Program-made: the position numbers and the translations under genes
From: a virus
Direction: 5' to 3' (one strand)
IMG/VR virus record: IMGVR_UViG_3300017714_000026
Location: 1 to 45,303 of that record
Length of the DNA: 45,303 nucleotides
Part shown: piece after piece, positions 1,821 to 34,660 of the stretch
Layout: the number at the start of each line of letters is the position of its first letter
Position numbering within the stretch: position 1 is the stretch's first letter
Notes under the pieces: generated by a model
Seen by the model: only the letters and a program-made list of their open reading frames with translations
What the model was told of the DNA's origin: nothing
Databases searched by the model: none

Positions 1821-1859
1821 TTTTAAGTCTGGTGCGTCTACCGATTCCGCCATGCCCCC
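1821..1859 (-). other. attP: Putative attP: 5' half of a tRNA-Leu(UAA) gene
   Basis: Read on the minus strand this is the 5' half of a leucine tRNA: a 7-nt acceptor strand (GGGGGCA), TG, the D-arm GCGGAATCGGTAGACGC, A26, the anticodon-stem strand CCAGA and the loop CTTAAAA with anticodon TAA. The sequence that follows (GGCACC) does not complete the anticodon stem, so tRNA identity stops at the anticodon loop, where many tyrosine integrases cross over. It lies about 85 bp beyond the integrase stop. A comparable int-adjacent tRNA-Leu match is known in the cyanopodovirus P-SSP7. It is not a functional tRNA gene. Confidence 0.82.
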
Positions 1860-1942: not shown

Positions 1943-2803
1943 TCAGAGTGCCAGAACGGCAGATCTGGCGGCCTCATCTGTGGCCTTGCAATACTTGAGA
2001 GACATGTCGATGGTCTTATGGCCGAGGGCCTCCATCAACGTGCGGGGATGCGTAACTGCACCCATCCAAGTACCAAATGAATGACGAAGACAATGCCAGA
2101 CGTAGTCATCACTAAATCCTGCGATCTTCCTTACCTTGCAAAAGTTGCGGTAAAGCTGATCTTTGTTATCCCAGTCGGCCCTAAATAGGTACTCCTGGTC
2201 TAAGCGATCAAAAATGATCTTCTGGATTTTTGGATGCAATGTGATGTTGCGTACCCCTTTAGCATTCTTCGTCAGACGCCCGGTCTTACCGCCGATCCAG
2301 ATTTGATCGTGTGCCGAGTCGTAGTCAGCCGACTTGAGCTTGAGTAGCTCGCCTTGCCTAATCCCTGTGTAAGCAGAGACAAGCATGGCGTCCGCTAAGT
2401 CATCACCCCAGCGATCTCCAAAGAGATCACGGGAGACAGAGCAGAGCCTGTCAACGTCGTCTTTGGTGAACCACTCAATGCGGCAGGCACCTTCTTGAGC
2501 CCGTGGGAAGACGGGCATGTCGTATTTGTGAAGGCCAGCTAGATGGGTGAAGTTGAACACTGTGGAGCCAGCCGAAAGAATTCGGTTGACTGTTGATCCA
2601 CTGCGTCCTTCCTCAAGCTCAGCTTTAAGTTCCAACCACCAACCAGCAACGGTCAGTCGCTTAAGTGGAAGTGATTTGCCAGCATATTGAGTGATGTGGT
2701 TTGCATTTGTCAGAGCTGTCTTTGCTCCTCTTGTGCGCTTCCACTTGACACGCCATGTGTATTCCAAGGCGTCATTCCACGTTTTTACTGTCGTGGTTGT
2801 CAT
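1943..2803 (-). CDS. int: Tyrosine site-specific recombinase / integrase
   Basis: This 286-residue phage integrase is predicted to recombine attP with a host attB. The catalytic set is visible: Arg149 in YTGIRQGELL, His237-x-x-Arg240 in WHCLRHSFG, His262 in LGHKT and the nucleophile Tyr271 in LKYCKAT. The N-terminal roughly 110 residues form a SAM-like core-binding domain. It overlaps the winged-helix gene upstream by 32 nt, and a tRNA-Leu-derived attP candidate lies just downstream, so site and enzyme travel together. All catalytic residues are present, so it should be active. Actual lysogeny is not shown by sequence alone. Confidence 0.95.
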   Translation of the reverse strand: MTTTTVKTWNDALEYTWRVKWKRTRGAKTALTNANHITQYAGKSLPLKRLTVAGWWLELKAELEEGRSGSTVNRILSAGSTVFNFTHLAGLHKYDMPVFPRAQEGACRIEWFTKDDVDRLCSVSRDLFGDRWGDDLADAMLVSAYTGIRQGELLKLKSADYDSAHDQIWIGGKTGRLTKNAKGVRNITLHPKIQKIIFDRLDQEYLFRADWDNKDQLYRNFCKVRKIAGFSDDYVWHCLRHSFGTWMGAVTHPRTLMEALGHKTIDMSLKYCKATDEAARSAVLAL

Positions 2804-3197
2804 GAGCTTTCAGGTCCTCCTGTGCTTTGGTGAGTGTGTTTAGAGACGCTGTGGCGTAGTTGTCCAACAGGTTGGTGAAGATCTCACCTCTGGGGGTCAA
2901 ATACAAGAGATACCCGCGCCAGTTTTCCGGGTCTCTCTCCCGGCGTACAAGCCGCAGGCCTGAGCGATGCTCGAGCCTGTGTTGAGGTCCAAGCCACTTG
3001 ACACAACGGCTTACGCTGCTGCGCGAGATATTGCAGTGCTTCATCAGGTCATCCTGTTTGCACCCGTTATGAGACGCAATCCAGAAAAACACTGACATCA
3101 GTTGAGCTGGAAACTCCCGCTCTCCTGTTGACCGCAACAACTCGATAACCATGAAGGCACGCATTGCACCTTCGCTAGTTAGTTTCTCAAGTGGCAT
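2772..3197 (-). CDS. Winged-helix (MarR-like) DNA-binding protein
   Basis: This 141-residue protein carries a winged helix-turn-helix: QDDLMKHCNISRSSVSRCVK at about residues 48-67 reads as a HTH with recognition helix SRSSVSRCVKWL, followed by a wing around RSGLRLVRRERDPENWRGY and LTPRGE. That pattern is typical of MarR-type regulators. It lies between the RNA polymerase and the integrase, and its 3' end overlaps int by 32 nt, so the two are probably co-translated. A role in controlling integration or early-gene shut-off is inferred from position. It could instead be a directionality factor, although it is large for one. Confidence 0.75.
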   Translation of the reverse strand: MPLEKLTSEGAMRAFMVIELLRSTGEREFPAQLMSVFFWIASHNGCKQDDLMKHCNISRSSVSRCVKWLGPQHRLEHRSGLRLVRRERDPENWRGYLLYLTPRGEIFTNLLDNYATASLNTLTKAQEDLKAHDNHDSKNVE

Positions 3198-7268: not shown

Positions 7269-7739
7269 TTAATTGAGTAAACCTAGCTTAGACATGATTT
7301 TGTGTACCATCTGTTTAATACATTCATACTGACCGACCGCCAATCGTTCCGACATCGAAGCATCGGCCATGATGCACCCCATCTCCCTTACTTGGTCGCA
7401 ATAATAAAGACGCGATCCATTCTCCGCAATCCATGCCGCTAGTTCTGCGTTATAGATAGACACAAGACCATCAGCGATTTCATGGGATGCGTCACTCCAT
7501 TCTGTATCTGCATCAAATTCAGTGATGGCATCACATATCTCTGCGATCTTTTGATATCGCCAATCATTGGGGAGTTCTTCATCATGCAATTCATAGACAA
7601 ACGTTGCGAGGTCATCAACGCTTTGGCGTGCTTCTTCAGTAAATCGCCAAAACTCTGACCCATCCTCTCGTTGCTCGAGAGTAAATGCACTCCGCAGTGT
7701 TGCTGCGGTGAGATACCAATTGATCGAGGTCACAGTCAT
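7269..7739 (-). CDS. Hypothetical acidic early protein, 156 aa
   Basis: This is the largest protein of the early block. It is strongly acidic, mainly helical and rich in Trp and Tyr (NWYLTAATLRSAFTL, FWRFTEEAR, NDWRYQKI, SRLYYCDQVREMGCIM). The acidity and size recall DNA-mimic or inhibitor proteins that T7-type phages express early, but no known anti-restriction family could be identified, so this is only a suggestion. It begins about 20 nt after a copy of the repeated intergenic element (7760-7775) and has a free leader with no strong ribosome-binding site. Confidence 0.75.
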   Translation of the reverse strand: MTVTSINWYLTAATLRSAFTLEQREDGSEFWRFTEEARQSVDDLATFVYELHDEELPNDWRYQKIAEICDAITEFDADTEWSDASHEIADGLVSIYNAELAAWIAENGSRLYYCDQVREMGCIMADASMSERLAVGQYECIKQMVHKIMSKLGLLN

Positions 7740-8171: not shown

Positions 8172-8330
8172 CTAGCTGTAGGACCGTGTGATCTTGTGGA
8201 TGTAGTGAGGACGGACAAGGCTCAGATAACGGAGGAAGCGCTCGGCTTCTTGCTTGGTCCGTCTTGTGGTGATTGTCTGCCATCCATCTGTAATGCCGTG
8301 ATAGGTCTGAATGTGGGCGGTGATGGTCAT
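8172..8330 (-). CDS. Small basic early protein, 52 aa
   Basis: This ORF starts MTITAHIQTYHGITDGWQT and continues with a basic helical half (TTRRTKQEAERFLRYLSLV, ending ITRSYS). Its leader (8331-8405) is one copy of a duplicated leader module and contains a TGTC-N11-GACA dyad 22 nt upstream of the ATG. A plus-strand frame over the same bases (8148-8447) is not supported by any leader or family. No domain is recognised. Confidence 0.65.
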   Translation of the reverse strand: MTITAHIQTYHGITDGWQTITTRRTKQEAERFLRYLSLVRPHYIHKITRSYS

Positions 8331-8405
8331 GAGGTGGTGTTGGTTGAACTGTGTCTAGTGTGGCCTGACACTTGGCTTAATGGGAACAATCACACACATT
8401 TCTTA
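8331..8405 (-). repeat. Duplicated early leader module, copy A
   Basis: On the minus strand this stretch aligns with 8673-8764: both read CCAATnnTTAAGAAATGTG, then TGATT, then AGTGTC, then TAGACACAGTTCAA, and end at the ATG of a small gene. The conserved blocks are separated by diverged ones, so the two are old duplicates under selection at specific sites. In copy A the left end also encodes the last residues of the 95-residue gene. Confidence 0.75.
8352..8370. promoter_or_regulatory. Candidate operator 2 (TGTC-N11-GACA dyad)
   Basis: TGTCTAGTGTGGCCTGACA is an imperfect palindrome with the same outer half-sites and 11-bp spacing as the dyads at 8699-8717 and 9759-9777. It lies 22 nt upstream of the start of the gene at 8172-8330. 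Binding by the plus-strand HTH protein is inferred. Confidence 0.5.
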
Positions 8406-8677
8406 ATGATTGGCCAGTCCCATGACGTCATGCTTAGAGCTACATAAGCACCCATAGCTTTAAGCCCACGTTGAAGGGCTGCAACTTGTCTGAAGCAGAG
8501 CTCATCGTTAAAGCCGATATAAAAATAACCGCACTCTCCTTTGCTGCAGGGAGCTCTTTTAACTAGCCAACCCGTGCCCTGCTCGTCGGCTACATATTCA
8601 ACGAAACCCTCAAGCGTGGATTGTTTGATTCCAGCGACCATGATGGTTGTCTGAATTGTTGTCGTTGCTGTTGTCAT
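8390..8677 (-). CDS. Hypothetical early protein, 95 aa
   Basis: The protein starts MTTATTTIQTTIMVAGIKQ, then FVEYVADEQGTGWLVKR, a Cys pair in CSKGECGYFYIGF, and a C-terminus SWDWPIIKKCV. The pattern is alpha/beta and no family is recognised. Its leader is copy B of the duplicated module with a TGTC-N11-GACA dyad. A near copy of its C-terminal codons (CCAATnnTTAAGAAATGTG) appears as non-coding relic in copy B, so this gene or a relative was probably duplicated and one copy lost. Confidence 0.7.
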   Translation of the reverse strand: MTTATTTIQTTIMVAGIKQSTLEGFVEYVADEQGTGWLVKRAPCSKGECGYFYIGFNDELCFRQVAALQRGLKAMGAYVALSMTSWDWPIIKKCV

Positions 8678-8764
8678 TAGATGGGACTGATTGAACTGTG
8701 TCTATCCTGCCTCGACACTCTGCCATGTGGAAGTAATCACCCACATTTCTTAACAATTGGGTTA
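8673..8764 (-). repeat. Duplicated early leader module, copy B
   Basis: This is the counterpart of 8331-8405 (copy A). It follows the stop of the 75-residue gene, begins with a relic of a gene 3' end (CCAATTGTTAAGAAATGTGG), holds a TGTC-N11-GACA dyad and ends at the ATG of the 95-residue gene. The outer dyad bases and the TAGACACAGTTCAA block are identical in both copies while the centre has diverged. Confidence 0.75.
8699..8717. promoter_or_regulatory. Candidate operator 3 (TGTC-N11-GACA dyad)
   Basis: TGTCTATCCTGCCTCGACA shares the TGTCTA ... GACA outer sequence and exact 19-bp length with the dyads at 8352-8370 and 9759-9777. It lies 22 nt upstream of the 95-residue gene. Confidence 0.5.
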
Positions 8765-8989
8765 GTCCGTCCACTGGATGCAAGACATTTCCTCTCTAAT
8801 GCCTTTGTCCAGAATCCATTCTTCCTCAACTGATTGAACAGCGTGGACGATGTCCCATTGATCTGGTGTTAGCTCTGCCTCGTCCATGTCATCTGGTAGT
8901 GCATCCATCAACCTGTCGAGTCTTGAGTAGACCTCAACGAGTGAACGTTGCATGTTCTGCAGATAGATGGGTGTCTTGTCTTGGTTCAT
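8762..8989 (-). CDS. First early gene: acidic helical protein, 75 aa
   Basis: This ORF starts MNQDKTPIYLQNMQRSLVEV; an acidic helical body follows (LPDDMDEAELTPDQWDIV, EEEWILDKGIREEM) and it ends CIQWTD. It is the first gene after the strong terminator at 9153-9207, so it is probably among the first genes transcribed. T7-type phages place host-takeover proteins here, and the net negative charge fits an inhibitor, but no family is recognised. A TATGAT hexamer lies 25 nt upstream of the ATG. Confidence 0.7.
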   Translation of the reverse strand: MNQDKTPIYLQNMQRSLVEVYSRLDRLMDALPDDMDEAELTPDQWDIVHAVQSVEEEWILDKGIREEMSCIQWTD

Positions 8990-9152
8990 GTTGAAGATGA
9001 AAAACTACAGATCATCATAAAAATACAAAAGGAATAACTAGGCCAGCACTGCACAAAAGCTGTGCTTATTGAGAATGACCCAGAATAATTGAGAATCAGA
9101 TACCAAATTAGATGTCTAGTCTGATGAGAAGCATTGCTATGACTGGGGTTTG
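8990..9152 (-). promoter_or_regulatory. Putative early control region
   Basis: About 160 bp without genes separate the late terminator from the first early gene. A TATGAT hexamer on the minus strand (9014-9019) is a good host sigma70 -10 element at the right distance from the ATG at 8989, although no good -35 is seen. ATTCTCAAT occurs twice, 21 bp apart (about 9068-9097), and a TGTCTAG half-site matching the operator dyads is at 9113-9119. A GCACA-GCTTT-TGTGC hairpin is also present. Confidence 0.4.
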
Positions 9153-9207
9153 AGAAAAAGACCCCCACCCCCCTCCTATTTTTTATCGACAGGGGGGCCT
9201 AGGGGGT
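9153..9207 (-). terminator. Strong bidirectional-looking terminator between late and early genes
   Basis: On the minus strand ACCCCC and CCCCCCT (9191-9207) pair with AGGGGGG and GGGGGT (9161-9174), giving about 13 nearly all-G/C pairs with a small bulge, followed by CTTTTTCTC. The stem strength and position suggest it insulates the early promoter region from transcription that has passed through the terminase end of the map. Confidence 0.75.
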
Positions 9208-9256
9208 AACTGGCCGCGCCGCCATATAACGTATGGGCTTAGAAATTTATGTTGTT

Positions 9257-9427
9257 TTACTCCGAAGACTTAAAGAACTCATCTATCTCAGGATGAATCT
9301 CTAATCCTTGGAATGGATCATATTCTTCCCCACGCATTGCAGCTCTAATAGAGGCACAAAGCCAAGGATTCTTAGCCTTCATAGCGGCTCTCAGAGCGGC
9401 TTGAAGTTTCATTTCTCTGTCAGACAT
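9257..9427 (-). CDS. Small protein, 56 aa, near the genome terminus
   Basis: This ORF starts MSDREMKLQAALRAAMKAKN, then PWLCASIRAAMRGEEYD, and has an acidic end (HPEIDEFFKSSE). Its start overlaps the preceding stop as TGATG, so it is translated with the 101-residue gene upstream. It is helical, with an Ala-rich amphipathic segment. No family is recognised. It is the last gene before the strong terminator. Confidence 0.65.
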   Translation of the reverse strand: MSDREMKLQAALRAAMKAKNPWLCASIRAAMRGEEYDPFQGLEIHPEIDEFFKSSE

Positions 9428-9732
9428 CACACAACCATCTTTGTGTTGCTTGTAGGGTCTTCTAGGGCTGCCTCAGAGGCAAACGATGTATCTTTGACTC
9501 CTTCTTTTTCAGAAGAGGAATACATCTCATCCATCTCAAGACACCAAGCCTTAAGGGCTTTCCCGGTATCTGTGAACTTGGCTACACCTAGAGCACGCCA
9601 GCATTCCTTTGGGTCGTTATGACCTCTTGTGGAACCTTTGTAATGACTAACGAAATAGTTAGGACCTTCTCTGACCCGGAAATAATCAAAAGAACACCCT
9701 GGGGTATTCCCTTCAAACGGTATGACTTTCAT
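9427..9732 (-). CDS. Hypothetical protein divergent from the HTH regulator
   Basis: This 101-residue protein starts MKVIPFEGNTPGCSFDYFRV; continues PNYFVSHYKGSTRGHNDPKE, which looks like a small DNA-binding AP2/ERF-like or intron-encoded repeat (beta strands with a YFVSHYKG core); then WRALGVAKFTDTGKALKAW and an acidic disordered tail. It is transcribed away from the plus-strand HTH gene across a 48-bp region that holds a 19-bp dyad, so it is probably controlled by that regulator. The AP2-like reading is only a resemblance. Confidence 0.65.
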   Translation of the reverse strand: MKVIPFEGNTPGCSFDYFRVREGPNYFVSHYKGSTRGHNDPKECWRALGVAKFTDTGKALKAWCLEMDEMYSSSEKEGVKDTSFASEAALEDPTSNTKMVV

Positions 9733-9758
9733 GATATGTGGTAACTGTATGCTATGTT

Positions 9759-9777
9759 TGTCTAGTCAGCCTAGACA
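9759..9777. promoter_or_regulatory. Candidate operator 1 between divergent genes
   Basis: TGTCTAGTCAGCCTAGACA is a perfect 7-bp inverted repeat (TGTCTAG / CTAGACA) around a 5-bp centre. It fills the space directly upstream of the HTH gene (ending 3 bp before its ATG) in the 48-bp divergent region. It is a natural autoregulation site and the best member of a three-site family. Confidence 0.65.
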
Positions 9778-9780
9778 GCA

Positions 9781-10059
9781 ATGAAACGAATCCATTACGA
9801 CTACGGCGGTAACGCCCCTGCTGTAGTTCTGTGTGAGGACGATAGGGTCCAGATCAAGAACGCTTTAAAGGGTAAAGGCGTAACTGCTTTTGCCAAAGAG
9901 ATAGGCATCAACAGAACCCATGTCTACGGGTTACTAGACTCACATCGTATGGAACTACTACGGTTTAGTCAGATCTGTAAGGTATTAAACCTACAACTAC
10001 TAAACAAACAAGACATAGAAGAGTTTATGTTTGATTTAAACAAACAACTGTATGTATGA
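9781..10059 (+). CDS. Helix-turn-helix regulator (Cro/CI-type candidate), only plus-strand gene
   Basis: This 92-residue protein has the residue pattern of a Cro/CI helix-turn-helix at about 29-66: GVTAFAKEIGINRTHVYGLL is the HTH proper, with AFAKEIGI as the first helix, a Gly-containing turn and NRTHVYGLL as recognition helix; FSQICKVLNLQLL completes the bundle. It is a typical size for a phage repressor or antitoxin-like regulator. It is the only gene on the plus strand, opposite and divergent to the rest, with a perfect dyad 3 bp upstream and no Shine-Dalgarno, so the mRNA may be leaderless. It could instead be the DNA-binding half of a toxin-antitoxin pair, but no partner toxin is evident. 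Confidence 0.75.
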   Translation: MKRIHYDYGGNAPAVVLCEDDRVQIKNALKGKGVTAFAKEIGINRTHVYGLLDSHRMELLRFSQICKVLNLQLLNKQDIEEFMFDLNKQLYV

Positions 10060-10405: not shown

Positions 10406-12169
10406 TTAAGTCCAGTCCCAAACCTTAGTACTAGCAGTGGATGTGAGGTTTTTAAAGGAGCGACCTAGGGCCAACGCATCTGTTGCTAGGTGTGGATTGT
10501 TTTCAAAAGCATCCATCATTGCTTTCCATTCTTCATGCTTTCTAACTGCTTGTGCTTTATGTGCTGATTGAGCGAGGGCGTCAATAAACCACTGGACGCC
10601 TTGGGATAGGGCATCAATACGGTCATCGTGTTTGATAGCTCCACCACCTTGAACATTGCACATACGAGACATCTGATAACCAAGCATGTACTCCAGTCGT
10701 TTTTCAGGAGGTGCATCAGGGTTAGAGGCGTAGTCATATTCCCAAACCTTTGGATCAATGATCAGCTTGTGCTGGTTCATGACAGGTTCGAGAGTATCAA
10801 TAATCCTTTGTTCCTTACGAACGCTTGCACGAACTTCTTCAGTAGTAAAGTTAGCACCCATTTGAATGATGTGGCGTTTAAATAGCTCACATATCATTCC
10901 GTCTCCGAAGTTACTTTCTACAAGAAGACGACTAACATTATATTTTTTACCAAGCCTAACAATACTAGACAAGGTGGTATCAGAATAACCATCACGGAAG
11001 GCAACCATGTCTCTAACAAAGACATAACCATTTGCTTGACTAACCACAACTGCAACAGTTTCGTCAGCTCCTCGGCCTGAGGGGTCAACGCTTACGACCG
11101 ATTCGGTATATTCGCACATCCCCTCATCAATAAACATTGGGGTGTAAAAGCGGTCTCCGGGTAACCCCACGGGGTTTAGATCTTTGATCATGTATCGAGG
11201 ATCAGCAGACCAGGCATAACGCTCAGCGCATTCATTACCTAAGGGGGTGACGATTAGATCTTGGAACTTAAGTGGGAACTTTTCACTATCAGATAGCGAA
11301 GTATCCAGCATAAATTGCAACTGAAAGTTTGAGCGGCCCATAGCCGACTCACGTTCCATCAGGTCCAGGTCACTGAATCTCGTATCTGTAGGTGCGCCGG
11401 GATCCTGTCCTCTCTCAATATCTGCGACCAACTGCGGTGCGAGTAATCCTTCATACTTTGATAAATCTTCGGGGTATCTTGCGGGCCACACGAACGGCCT
11501 ATAAGATCGTTCGGCCAAGCGTCTGTAGACGGTGAAGGTCGACTGCGGAGTCCCAAGAAAAAGTATTCGGCTATCATCTTTAGGAGTTAAAATAGATTCT
11601 GATTCGGTTACTAATTGTAAAAGTTTTTCCCGTTGGATATCACTGTAGGAATTTTGTGGTACCTCAACATCATCGAATACTAGAAGGTCAGCCCTGGATC
11701 CAGTCATCTGACCTGTAATTCCGACAGACTTAACTGAGGGAGCCTGGTGTGGCTTGGCTGGACCAACATCAAAAGATATTCTTGACCAACGTTGATCGGA
11801 ATCTTTTGGGCCAAGATGTCCTAACCATTCGATATCAAGGATTAGTTTTTGACAGAAGATAGAGAAGTTATCCGCCCTTTCCTTTGAAGCTGATATAACC
11901 ATAACCTTACGGTCTGGATCGTTGAACAAAGTCCAAAGAACAAAAGCAGCAGAGATCCAACTTTTACCAACACCTCGAAAAGCTGAGATTTGAAGACGCT
12001 TAGGTCCGTGTTGCAAATAGTCAGCAATAGCTAGTTGTGCTCTTGTTGGTGTGGGTAGGTCAAGTTCACGCCAAATCAGGGTTAGAAATACTTTAAAATC
12101 AGTCTTGATTTTTATCTCTAGTTCGTTTAAATTCATAGGTATATCCAATGATATCCAAACCCTCAACAT
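10406..12169 (-). CDS. Terminase large subunit (T7 gp19-like)
   Basis: This 587-residue protein is the packaging motor ATPase and nuclease. The Walker A motif FRGVGKSW lies near residue 68, the Walker B / DE box is LLVFDDVEV, and the RNase H-like nuclease domain shows VSVDPSGRGADET, then VESNFGDG, then DRIDALSQG. The length matches gp19 (586). The ATG at 12169 overlaps the upstream gene by 71 nt; an internal ATG at 12136 (MNLNELEIKIK) would cut this to 38 nt and may be the true start. It is the last gene of the late transcript, followed by the probable genome end. Confidence 0.95.
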   Translation of the reverse strand: MLRVWISLDIPMNLNELEIKIKTDFKVFLTLIWRELDLPTPTRAQLAIADYLQHGPKRLQISAFRGVGKSWISAAFVLWTLFNDPDRKVMVISASKERADNFSIFCQKLILDIEWLGHLGPKDSDQRWSRISFDVGPAKPHQAPSVKSVGITGQMTGSRADLLVFDDVEVPQNSYSDIQREKLLQLVTESESILTPKDDSRILFLGTPQSTFTVYRRLAERSYRPFVWPARYPEDLSKYEGLLAPQLVADIERGQDPGAPTDTRFSDLDLMERESAMGRSNFQLQFMLDTSLSDSEKFPLKFQDLIVTPLGNECAERYAWSADPRYMIKDLNPVGLPGDRFYTPMFIDEGMCEYTESVVSVDPSGRGADETVAVVVSQANGYVFVRDMVAFRDGYSDTTLSSIVRLGKKYNVSRLLVESNFGDGMICELFKRHIIQMGANFTTEEVRASVRKEQRIIDTLEPVMNQHKLIIDPKVWEYDYASNPDAPPEKRLEYMLGYQMSRMCNVQGGGAIKHDDRIDALSQGVQWFIDALAQSAHKAQAVRKHEEWKAMMDAFENNPHLATDALALGRSFKNLTSTASTKVWDWT

Positions 12170-14271: not shown

Positions 14272-14577
14272 TTACTTTTTAGTAGACTTACCGTTCTTAC
14301 CGTTACGGCCTCGGTTTTTGGTCTTATTTTCAGCGACCAACTTATTCTTTGTAGTGTGAGACATATCGGGTCCACCTTTGCCAGCGATCCCTCTTTTTTT
14401 TCTCTCGGCCCAGCGACGAGCCCCTTCTTTATTTAACCGACGTTTTTTTGCGGAATCAGGAGCTTTAGATCCTTTTTCCTTCTTACGATATTCACGGTCA
14501 TACGCCCGCTTTTTAGCAGCAGACTTAGGGGATTTTCGGTAGTTCTTACTGGATCGACTAGGACCTGCATGTGCCAT
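14272..14577 (-). CDS. Basic low-complexity protein, 101 aa
   Basis: It is Lys/Arg-rich throughout: it starts MAHAGPSRSSKNYRKSPKSA, then KKRAYDREYRKKEKG, and ends with a GGPDMSHTTKNKLVAENK stretch and a Gly/Asn/Lys tail. The D-x-S-H-T segment followed by an N-R-G-R motif looks like a family of basic proteins I have seen in cyanophages, with unknown function. The start overlaps the stop of the small terminase by one base. Probably virion- or DNA-associated by composition. Confidence 0.7.
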   Translation of the reverse strand: MAHAGPSRSSKNYRKSPKSAAKKRAYDREYRKKEKGSKAPDSAKKRRLNKEGARRWAERKKRGIAGKGGPDMSHTTKNKLVAENKTKNRGRNGKNGKSTKK

Positions 14578-14801
14578 TAGCCATTAACATCTTCAAAGGT
14601 CAACTCAGGAATTAAACCAGCCAAAGCTGCAAGCGGGGATCCAGACACAGCAATCCCTGTTATATTATTTTTAGCTAGCCAATCAATTGCAGCCCGAAGG
14701 TCAGCAGTTGTAGCTTCGCCTGATTTAATCCTAGCGGTAATTTCATTAGTCAATAGGGCGTGAAGCTCCTCAAAGGCTTCCTCACCAGCTCGCTTAGCCA
14801 T
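14577..14801 (-). CDS. Terminase small subunit (T7 gp18-like)
   Basis: This 74-residue protein reads LLTNEITARIKSGEATTADL followed by RAAIDWLAKNNITG. The stretch ARIKSGEATTADL ... WLAKNN is the helix-turn-helix-like signature of gp18-type small terminases, which recognise concatemer DNA and stimulate the large subunit. It is slightly shorter than T7 gp18 (89). The ATG is adjacent to the stop of the holin-like gene. Position between holin and large terminase matches T7. Confidence 0.8.
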   Translation of the reverse strand: MAKRAGEEAFEELHALLTNEITARIKSGEATTADLRAAIDWLAKNNITGIAVSGSPLAALAGLIPELTFEDVNG

Positions 14802-32988: not shown

Positions 32989-34210
32989 TTAAGCAGCTTG
33001 GATAGAACCAGCTACAGAAACACGCAGAGTGTCACAACCCATTGCCAATTTACCGACGATTAGGTCGCCTTGGAATTGGACATGGTAGTCTCCACTTGTG
33101 GTTTCGATGCTTGGGCCAATAGCCTCAAGCGTACCGGCGGCTTCCTTTTGGAAGACAAGGCCCGCAAGATTGGAACAATCAACCTTATAGTCGTTGTTCT
33201 CGCCGCTAACATCAGTGTTGAAGTTAGTGCCATACATTTCTGCAAGCACGTTGGACTTATAGATACGAATACCGGCGATAGAGTAGAGACCTTTGCCGCT
33301 ATTCATATCACCCTGAGTATTTCCAATCTCTCGATTGAGAATATTCGTGTCCACGGAGGAAATCAAACTGTAGTACTGACGTGGGCTGAGAACAGCACAG
33401 CGTCCGTCTGCAGGAGCATTACGCTCATCAAGTACAGCAGCAGCTTCGAAAACGTGTAATTTCCTACTTTCATAGGGCACAGACTATATCTTCATCCCAG
33501 TGGGATGTCGGACGCTATTGGTGTATTACGTGACACGCTTGTCACACCACCTAGTCGTTGCACCTTCCCCGCAAGCGTGCGGGGCTTGGCTCAGGATTGC
33601 CTTAGGCTTTCGCCCTTAGGTTTCCCTGAGTTCATCCGATTTCACTTATATGTTGCCACATAAGGGGCCAATTCATTTAGCCATCTACGATTGCCTGAGC
33701 ATCATTACTATTACCAGTACCGATGTTAACTTGAAAGCCACCAGGCTCATCAGTTACAACGGAAGATTCGGTAGCGCCTTTAGCAAGAACGCGAGCGATA
33801 CGCTGATCATAATGCAGGGCTAAACTTTCACCGATTTGCTTGGAGATCTCCGAACGTGCTGACCACTGGCTGAGCATCTCATCCAGGTCATAAATGAACT
33901 GGCTGCTATAGAGCAAGTCGTCCATGATAATTGTTTTTTCGTTCGACTTCAGACCAGCGTCGGGTCCGATAGGAGTTCCAGGGGTGTGATACCCGCTGGA
34001 GAGTTTGCCAGTCAGCAAGAACTGCTTGCTCTTACCACCACGAAGGGAGTAGTTACGAACGAGTCCTTTGAAGATTGTGGCGTCGTTGAATGCGTTGAAT
34101 ACTTCGCCAGAGAAAAGTTTAAGGCTTGTGGCGTAGCGAGTATCATAATCCTGGGAAGGAGTACGTGAACCGTTAGCAACGTTGTTACCTTGAAATGCTG
34201 AAAAAGTCAT
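32989..34210 (-). CDS. Major capsid protein (T7 gp10-like), interrupted by a group I intron
   Basis: The protein is in two exons, 34210-33679 (532 nt) and 33452-32989 (464 nt). Joined, they give 996 nt: 331 codons plus stop, in frame. Exon 1 starts MTFSAFQGNNVANGSR and has SEISKQIGESLALHYDQRIA; it ends ..DAQAIVDG plus the first base of a Phe codon. Exon 2 continues FFEAAAVLDERNAPADGRCA, LSPRQYYSLISSVDTNILNR and ends SVAGSIQAA. The joined stretch AIVDGFFEAAAVLDER is what gp10-type capsids of cyanopodoviruses show here. Without splicing, the frame stops at TAA (33679-33677) right after exon 1, so capsid production needs intron removal. Confidence 0.93.
33453..33678 (-). ncRNA. Group I self-splicing intron in the capsid gene
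   Basis: The 226-nt intron has no ORF. Visible landmarks on the minus strand: exon 1 ends in U, and GGCU-AA pairs with UUGGCC (P1, with the U-G pair at the splice site). CTTATGT pairs with ACATATAAG (P2), CTCAGG with CCTGAG (P4), and CCCCGC with GCGGGG (P6a). The Q-like segment AATCCTGAGCCAAG (33585-33598), R-like GTGCAACGACTAGG (33550-33563), hairpin GTGACA / TGTCAC (P8 region) and S-like AAGATATAGTC (33482-33492) follow, with GACTA / TAGTC as P7. The last base is G. Removing it restores the capsid frame. No homing endonuclease is inside. Confidence 0.92.
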
Positions 34211-34582: not shown

Positions 34583-34660
34583 GAGGTTTCTCCAAAAAGC
34601 CTGAGCCCCGTTCCATGCTTCAGGTGTTATGCGCCCATAAGGGTGAACGAACTTTGGAGA
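34583..34660 (-). other. Short gap after the scaffold gene with hairpins
   Basis: The gap holds the hairpin TTATG-GGCG-CATAA and a second stem, CCTGA / TCAGG (with a bulged A extending it), followed by CTTTTTGG, then the GGAG ribosome-binding site of the DUF4278 gene. The second stem could be a weak terminator or processing site before the highly expressed capsid cluster. Confidence 0.35.

Follow-up and report, generated by a model that had tools for sequence, protein, structure and literature searches.

The locus and its genomic setting

The window, by which we mean the whole 45.3-kb IMG/VR virus record analysed here, has a single credible gene on its plus strand, a 92-codon open reading frame; the other plus-strand frames lie antisense to genes or are short and unsupported. 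A spacer of 48 bp separates it from a divergent 101-aa gene, and within that spacer a perfect 7-5-7 dyad ends 3 bp before the ATG. A sequence-only reading of this DNA had described the lone plus-strand gene and its layout in these terms, and both descriptions hold. The coordinates are collected in Table 1.

Table 1. Features of the plus-strand locus, of the early leaders and of the integration module
Feature	Position	Strand	Basis or remark
Inserted unit, ~320 bp (ORF and spacer), approximate extent	9735-10056	+	Alignment with sister phages L009, L010 and L034, all without the unit
92-aa Cro/C1-like HTH protein, orphan family	9781-10059	+	ORF, dN/dS, HMM near-matches, AF2 model, Foldseek
Divergent intergenic spacer, 48 bp, with dyad and TGCTATG block	9733-9780		Sequence
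Perfect 7-5-7 dyad TGTCTAGTCAGCCTAGACA, candidate operator	9759-9777		Sequence; conserved in four carriers
101-aa first early gene	9427-9732	-	Divergent from HTH gene; likely target of HTH protein
Imperfect dyad TGTCGAGGCAGGATAGACA, possible second operator	8699-8717	-	21 bp before ATG of 95-aa early gene; 4/19 differences
Imperfect dyad TGTCAGGCCACACTAGACA	8352-8370	-	21 bp before ATG of 52-aa early gene; 5/19 differences
Large terminase gene	10406-12169	-	Early genes follow on same strand, 101-aa gene first
Small terminase subunit (TerS)	14577-14801		phrog_891, E 1e-17
Tyrosine integrase	1943-2803	-	PF00589, E 5e-13; phrog_1, E 4e-35
MarR-like winged-HTH regulator, directly upstream of integrase	2772-3197	-	PF12802, E 1.5e-5, just below cut-off; phrog_9665, E 6e-33
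Putative attP, 39 bp, downstream of integrase	1821-1859	-	Identical to 5' half of tRNA-Leu(UAA) in two Synechococcus genomes

Judged by its sequence, the window comes from a marine cyanophage of the T7 type whose relatives include Syn5, S-CBP42 and P60. Its terminase gene has 71-73% DNA identity to those of these three T7-like cyanophages, and a T7-type RNA polymerase, a DNA polymerase, a primase/helicase and T7-like capsid genes are all encoded. In T7-like phages the terminal repeat sits where the late region meets the early one; since the terminase and then the early genes follow one another on the minus strand, the helix-turn-helix (HTH) gene and the dyad lie at this boundary, the site where the repeat is expected. 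Among the other features of the genome, a 156-aa early protein (7269-7739, minus strand) shows a weak match to an ocr-like anti-restriction profile (phrog_2568, E 1.5e-4). The major capsid protein gene is split by a group I intron (33461-33688, minus strand; Rfam RF00028, 107.9 bits, E 3e-27) into ORFs 33677-34210 and 32989-33480, with the best-matching phage records aligning as two pieces that flank the intron, and a glutamine-II riboswitch aptamer lies upstream of the capsid gene (34600-34652, minus strand; Rfam RF01704, 44.8 bits, gathering 33).

The 92-aa protein and the perfect dyad

The plus-strand ORF is under purifying selection, with dN/dS of ~0.1-0.2 for the divergent pairs among four genomes. 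In profile searches its product matched phrog_4268, a 'transcriptional repressor' family (E 6e-4), Pfam HTH_26 (E 0.0086; 16.7 bits, under the 22-bit cut-off) and the HI1420-antidote profile TIGR02684 (E 0.0069; 16.6 bits, cut-off 53.7), together with PF21716 (E 0.019). None of these matches passed a curated cut-off, and across the three libraries they are weak yet concordant, suggesting a protein of the repressor or HTH type. A search of solved structures by sequence returned a spurious match only. In the AF2 model, two short strands at the N-terminus precede a helical HTH core, and a long helix forms the C-terminus; because just four related sequences exist for the alignment, it is only moderate in quality (pLDDT 81.6, the five models spanning 81.6 to 43.8). 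Almost all of its best Foldseek matches in the PDB are regulators of the Cro/C1 fold, SinR, HipB, C-proteins and Cro among them, with probabilities mostly above 0.9, TM of about 0.5 by query and E > 0.02; against viral models, Cro/C1 or repressor proteins were again returned at high probability, with E above 0.02. The Cro/C1-like HTH proposed in the sequence-only reading is supported by the phrog_4268 match, the modelled core and the Foldseek neighbours, but with HTH_26 below its cut-off and the Foldseek E-values above 0.02 it is not proven; the moderate-confidence model would correspond to a Cro/C1-type (SinR/HipB-like) fold. Beyond the HTH core the protein has only its C-terminal helix; a CI-type C-terminal dimerisation or cleavage domain is absent.

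The symmetry of the dyad is by itself modest evidence, and the comparative evidence is stronger. The window contains no excess of perfect dyads with arms of 7 bp (12 seen against 19 expected from first-order Markov controls), and one falls within a given 48-bp spacer by chance with p ~0.01. Across the four genomes that carry the gene, the dyad is invariant at 18 of its 19 positions and the remainder of the spacer at 12 of 29 (Fisher p = 0.0002); relative to the gap beyond the other end of the HTH gene, the dyad is not significantly better conserved (p = 0.22). This conservation of a candidate operator between divergent genes supports the layout of an autoregulated switch that had been suggested for the locus. 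The TGCTATG block adjoining the dyad is likewise invariant and is a possible -10 element of the HTH gene. As the 48-bp spacer contains no match to a sigma-70 promoter, we infer promoter positions there rather than read them from a consensus. Matches to a Syn5-type RNA polymerase promoter motif did not exceed chance. An exact 18-mer of the dyad occurs in contig L005, an unrelated high-GC phage with no relative of the HTH protein; because one or two chance matches are expected, by our estimate, in a collection of that size, it was not counted as evidence.

Elsewhere in the window, the sequences closest to the dyad are the two imperfect dyads of Table 1, both in early leaders; for a single site with four differences within the early region, p is ~0.01. 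These leaders arose by duplication and agree at about 72% over 112 bp (8325-8800, minus strand), so the two sites were counted once. In contigs L006 and L007, where the leader of the 52-aa gene is single, alignment identifies an ortholog of the 8699 site that is less symmetric. As further operators these sites, which were picked post hoc, are suggestive only. Neither L007 nor L008 conserves a half-site seen at 9113-9131, which was treated as chance. The leader of the 75-aa early gene (9040-9210, minus strand) has features of its own, namely a G/C-rich inverted repeat followed by a T-rich stretch, and a pair of ATTCTCAAT repeats spaced by about 20 bp.

A small insertion confined to few genomes

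Scanning with the 101-aa gene identified 39 viral contigs, and in 37 genomes, the window included, this gene follows the terminase. The HTH gene is present in four of the 37, the window and three relatives, where the gap between terminase and 101-aa gene measures 669-676 bp; the other 33 syntenic relatives, some of which are near-duplicates of each other, have a gap of 210-405 bp with no HTH-like ORF in it. The 101-aa gene is kept in T7-like cyanophages both with and without the HTH gene. Alignment with sister phages L009, L010 and L034 places the extra DNA of the carriers between the terminase and the first early gene, and it consists of the HTH ORF and the spacer and little else. The four carriers have both the ORF and the dyad, and the 33 syntenic relatives have neither; because ORF and dyad arrived together, their co-occurrence is no independent evidence. 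Gain in the carriers is a simpler reading of this distribution than loss in the other genomes.

Relatives of the 92-aa protein are few. Three viral contigs encode it at about 90-100% identity, and a profile re-scan of the viral contigs recovered the same three carriers and nothing further. No real relative was found by tblastn in annotated phage records, nor any in bacterial and archaeal genomes, in a scan reaching close relatives only. Two Pfam Cro/C1 models had no match in nine T7-like cyanophage isolates or in four viral contigs, and a profile of the 92-aa protein had none in 14 records comprising those nine isolates, the four contigs and one further genome. The earlier remark that T7-type phages usually lack such a regulator therefore holds for the nine isolates and four viral contigs; since the 92-aa protein itself scores under the Pfam cut-off, distant equivalents could be missed by these models. 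Overall, the sequence-only interpretation is partly supported, and it made no mention of the confinement of the insertion to few genomes, of the integrase, of the attP or of the MarR-like module.

The insertion is also not tied to the integration module, because L034, a sister phage that lacks the HTH gene, has this integrase, MarR-like gene and attP as well. Contig L052, assigned to a Crocinitomicaceae MAG, encodes a T7-like RNA polymerase, a MarR-like gene, an integrase and attP, all at the identities to the window that L034 shows, and is probably a misbinned cyanophage contig.

Proposed function and comparison with known systems

We consider the 92-aa protein to be probably a small Cro/C1-type repressor, acquired with its operator and controlling both the promoter of its own gene and that of the divergent early gene. 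In this model, a small XRE-like repressor gene entered the leader of the first early gene as a ~320-bp unit of ORF and spacer; a dimer of the protein would bind the 19-bp dyad and, once bound, would repress its own putative promoter and that of the first early gene, while the two weaker sites could possibly extend control to other early genes. The likely benefit would be restraint or shut-off of the early genes, or immunity against related phages. The role of the predicted repressor may lie in early-gene restraint during lytic growth, in immunity or in lysogeny.

As a lysogeny or immunity repressor, the protein could, together with the integrase, the MarR-like gene and the attP, silence the early genes of an integrated genome, which would make the lineage a temperate T7-like cyanophage. 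The integrase, the MarR-like regulator and the tRNA-Leu attP are present; the putative operator precedes the first early gene, and the published lack of repressor homologs has been offered as a reason why T7-like cyanophages form no stable lysogens (PMC8776855). However, L034 has the same integration module without the HTH gene, the CI-type C-terminal domain is absent, and the bacterial and archaeal genomes scanned hold no relative of the protein and hence, at the close range covered, no prophage with a close copy of it. We regard a lysogeny or immunity repressor as unlikely because evidence of prophages is lacking and non-carrier sisters have the same integrase. To the same degree we doubt the reading in which the HTH gene would provide T7-like cyanophages that bear an integrase and attP with their first candidate Cro/C1-type repressor, one that confers immunity or supports stable lysogeny in marine Synechococcus.

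Several further readings of the locus were considered and judged weak. Instead of a protein operator, the dyad might be an RNA hairpin or a promoter for a phage RNA polymerase, with the HTH protein acting elsewhere. A perfect dyad can indeed form a 7-bp stem on either strand, but its predicted folding is little better than that of shuffled sequences (z -0.35 and -0.60), and the 8699 site forms no such hairpin, which argues for shared sequence and not for shared RNA structure; nor is the motif repeated before the middle or late genes of the window. We give this reading a low probability, below that of a lysogeny repressor. That the protein is an orphan antitoxin-like member of the HigA/HI1420 family, belonging to a toxin-antitoxin or addiction pair, would fit its TIGR02684 and PF21716 matches, but the former is far under its cut-off, the insertion contains no toxin ORF, and the neighbouring 101-aa gene occurs in 33 relatives without the HTH gene, so that gene content largely refutes this very improbable reading. 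Equally remote is a DNA-binding packaging or genome-end protein, similar to a terminase small subunit and acting at the expected adjoining terminal repeat, as the position between the large terminase and the early genes and a weak phrog_3218 match (E 0.14) might suggest: TerS is encoded elsewhere in the window, and 33 relatives do without the HTH gene.

The repressor that we favour resembles the single-domain Cro/C1 (XRE) regulators (SinR N-domain, HipB, C-proteins, N15 and Xfaso Cro) in its modelled HTH core, its small size and the placement of a dyad in a divergent spacer. It differs from them in a sequence that falls below all curated cut-offs, in its extra N-terminal strands and C-terminal helix, and in having an operator that is only a candidate. 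Should it act as proposed, the locus would exemplify a phage gaining control over its own early genes through a minimal repressor-plus-operator unit. An integrase combined with an XRE regulator is also found in Agrobacterium phage Atu_ph08, which has been called T7-like (PMC6630229); that phage, however, has a 59-kb genome, is only a distant relative of the T7 group and encodes P22-like repressors.

For temperate T7-like phages such as LUZ100, the regulator that has been proposed is a MarR-like protein (PMC10134795). The window phage shares with the MarR-integrase modules of P-SSP7, LUZ100 and temperate Autographiviridae a MarR-like gene directly upstream of int, whereas its Cro/C1-like gene, a separate regulator, lies on the opposite strand where the early region has its other end. 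With S-TIP37 and P-SSP7 it shares a tyrosine integrase and a downstream attP equal to the first half of a tRNA-Leu (PMC8776855). T7-like cyanophages integrate by means of attP sites of this type and do not form stable lysogens; homologs of lysogeny repressors have not been found in them, and missing regulatory genes were proposed as a cause for the lack of stable lysogens (PMC8776855). In contrast to S-TIP37 and P-SSP7, the window has a repressor-like gene. The novelty of this feature lies in its place: a repressor-like gene and an operator-like site, present in a phage group described as lacking repressors and accompanied by an integration system in the same genome. Because the tools for integration are present, the HTH gene is a testable candidate for the repressor thought to be lacking in such viruses, and, if the lysogeny role were true, the minimal repressor-plus-operator unit would supply the step reported missing in S-TIP37 and P-SSP7. 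Comparison of carriers with close non-carriers makes the idea that a missing repressor precludes stable lysogens (PMC8776855) open to test.
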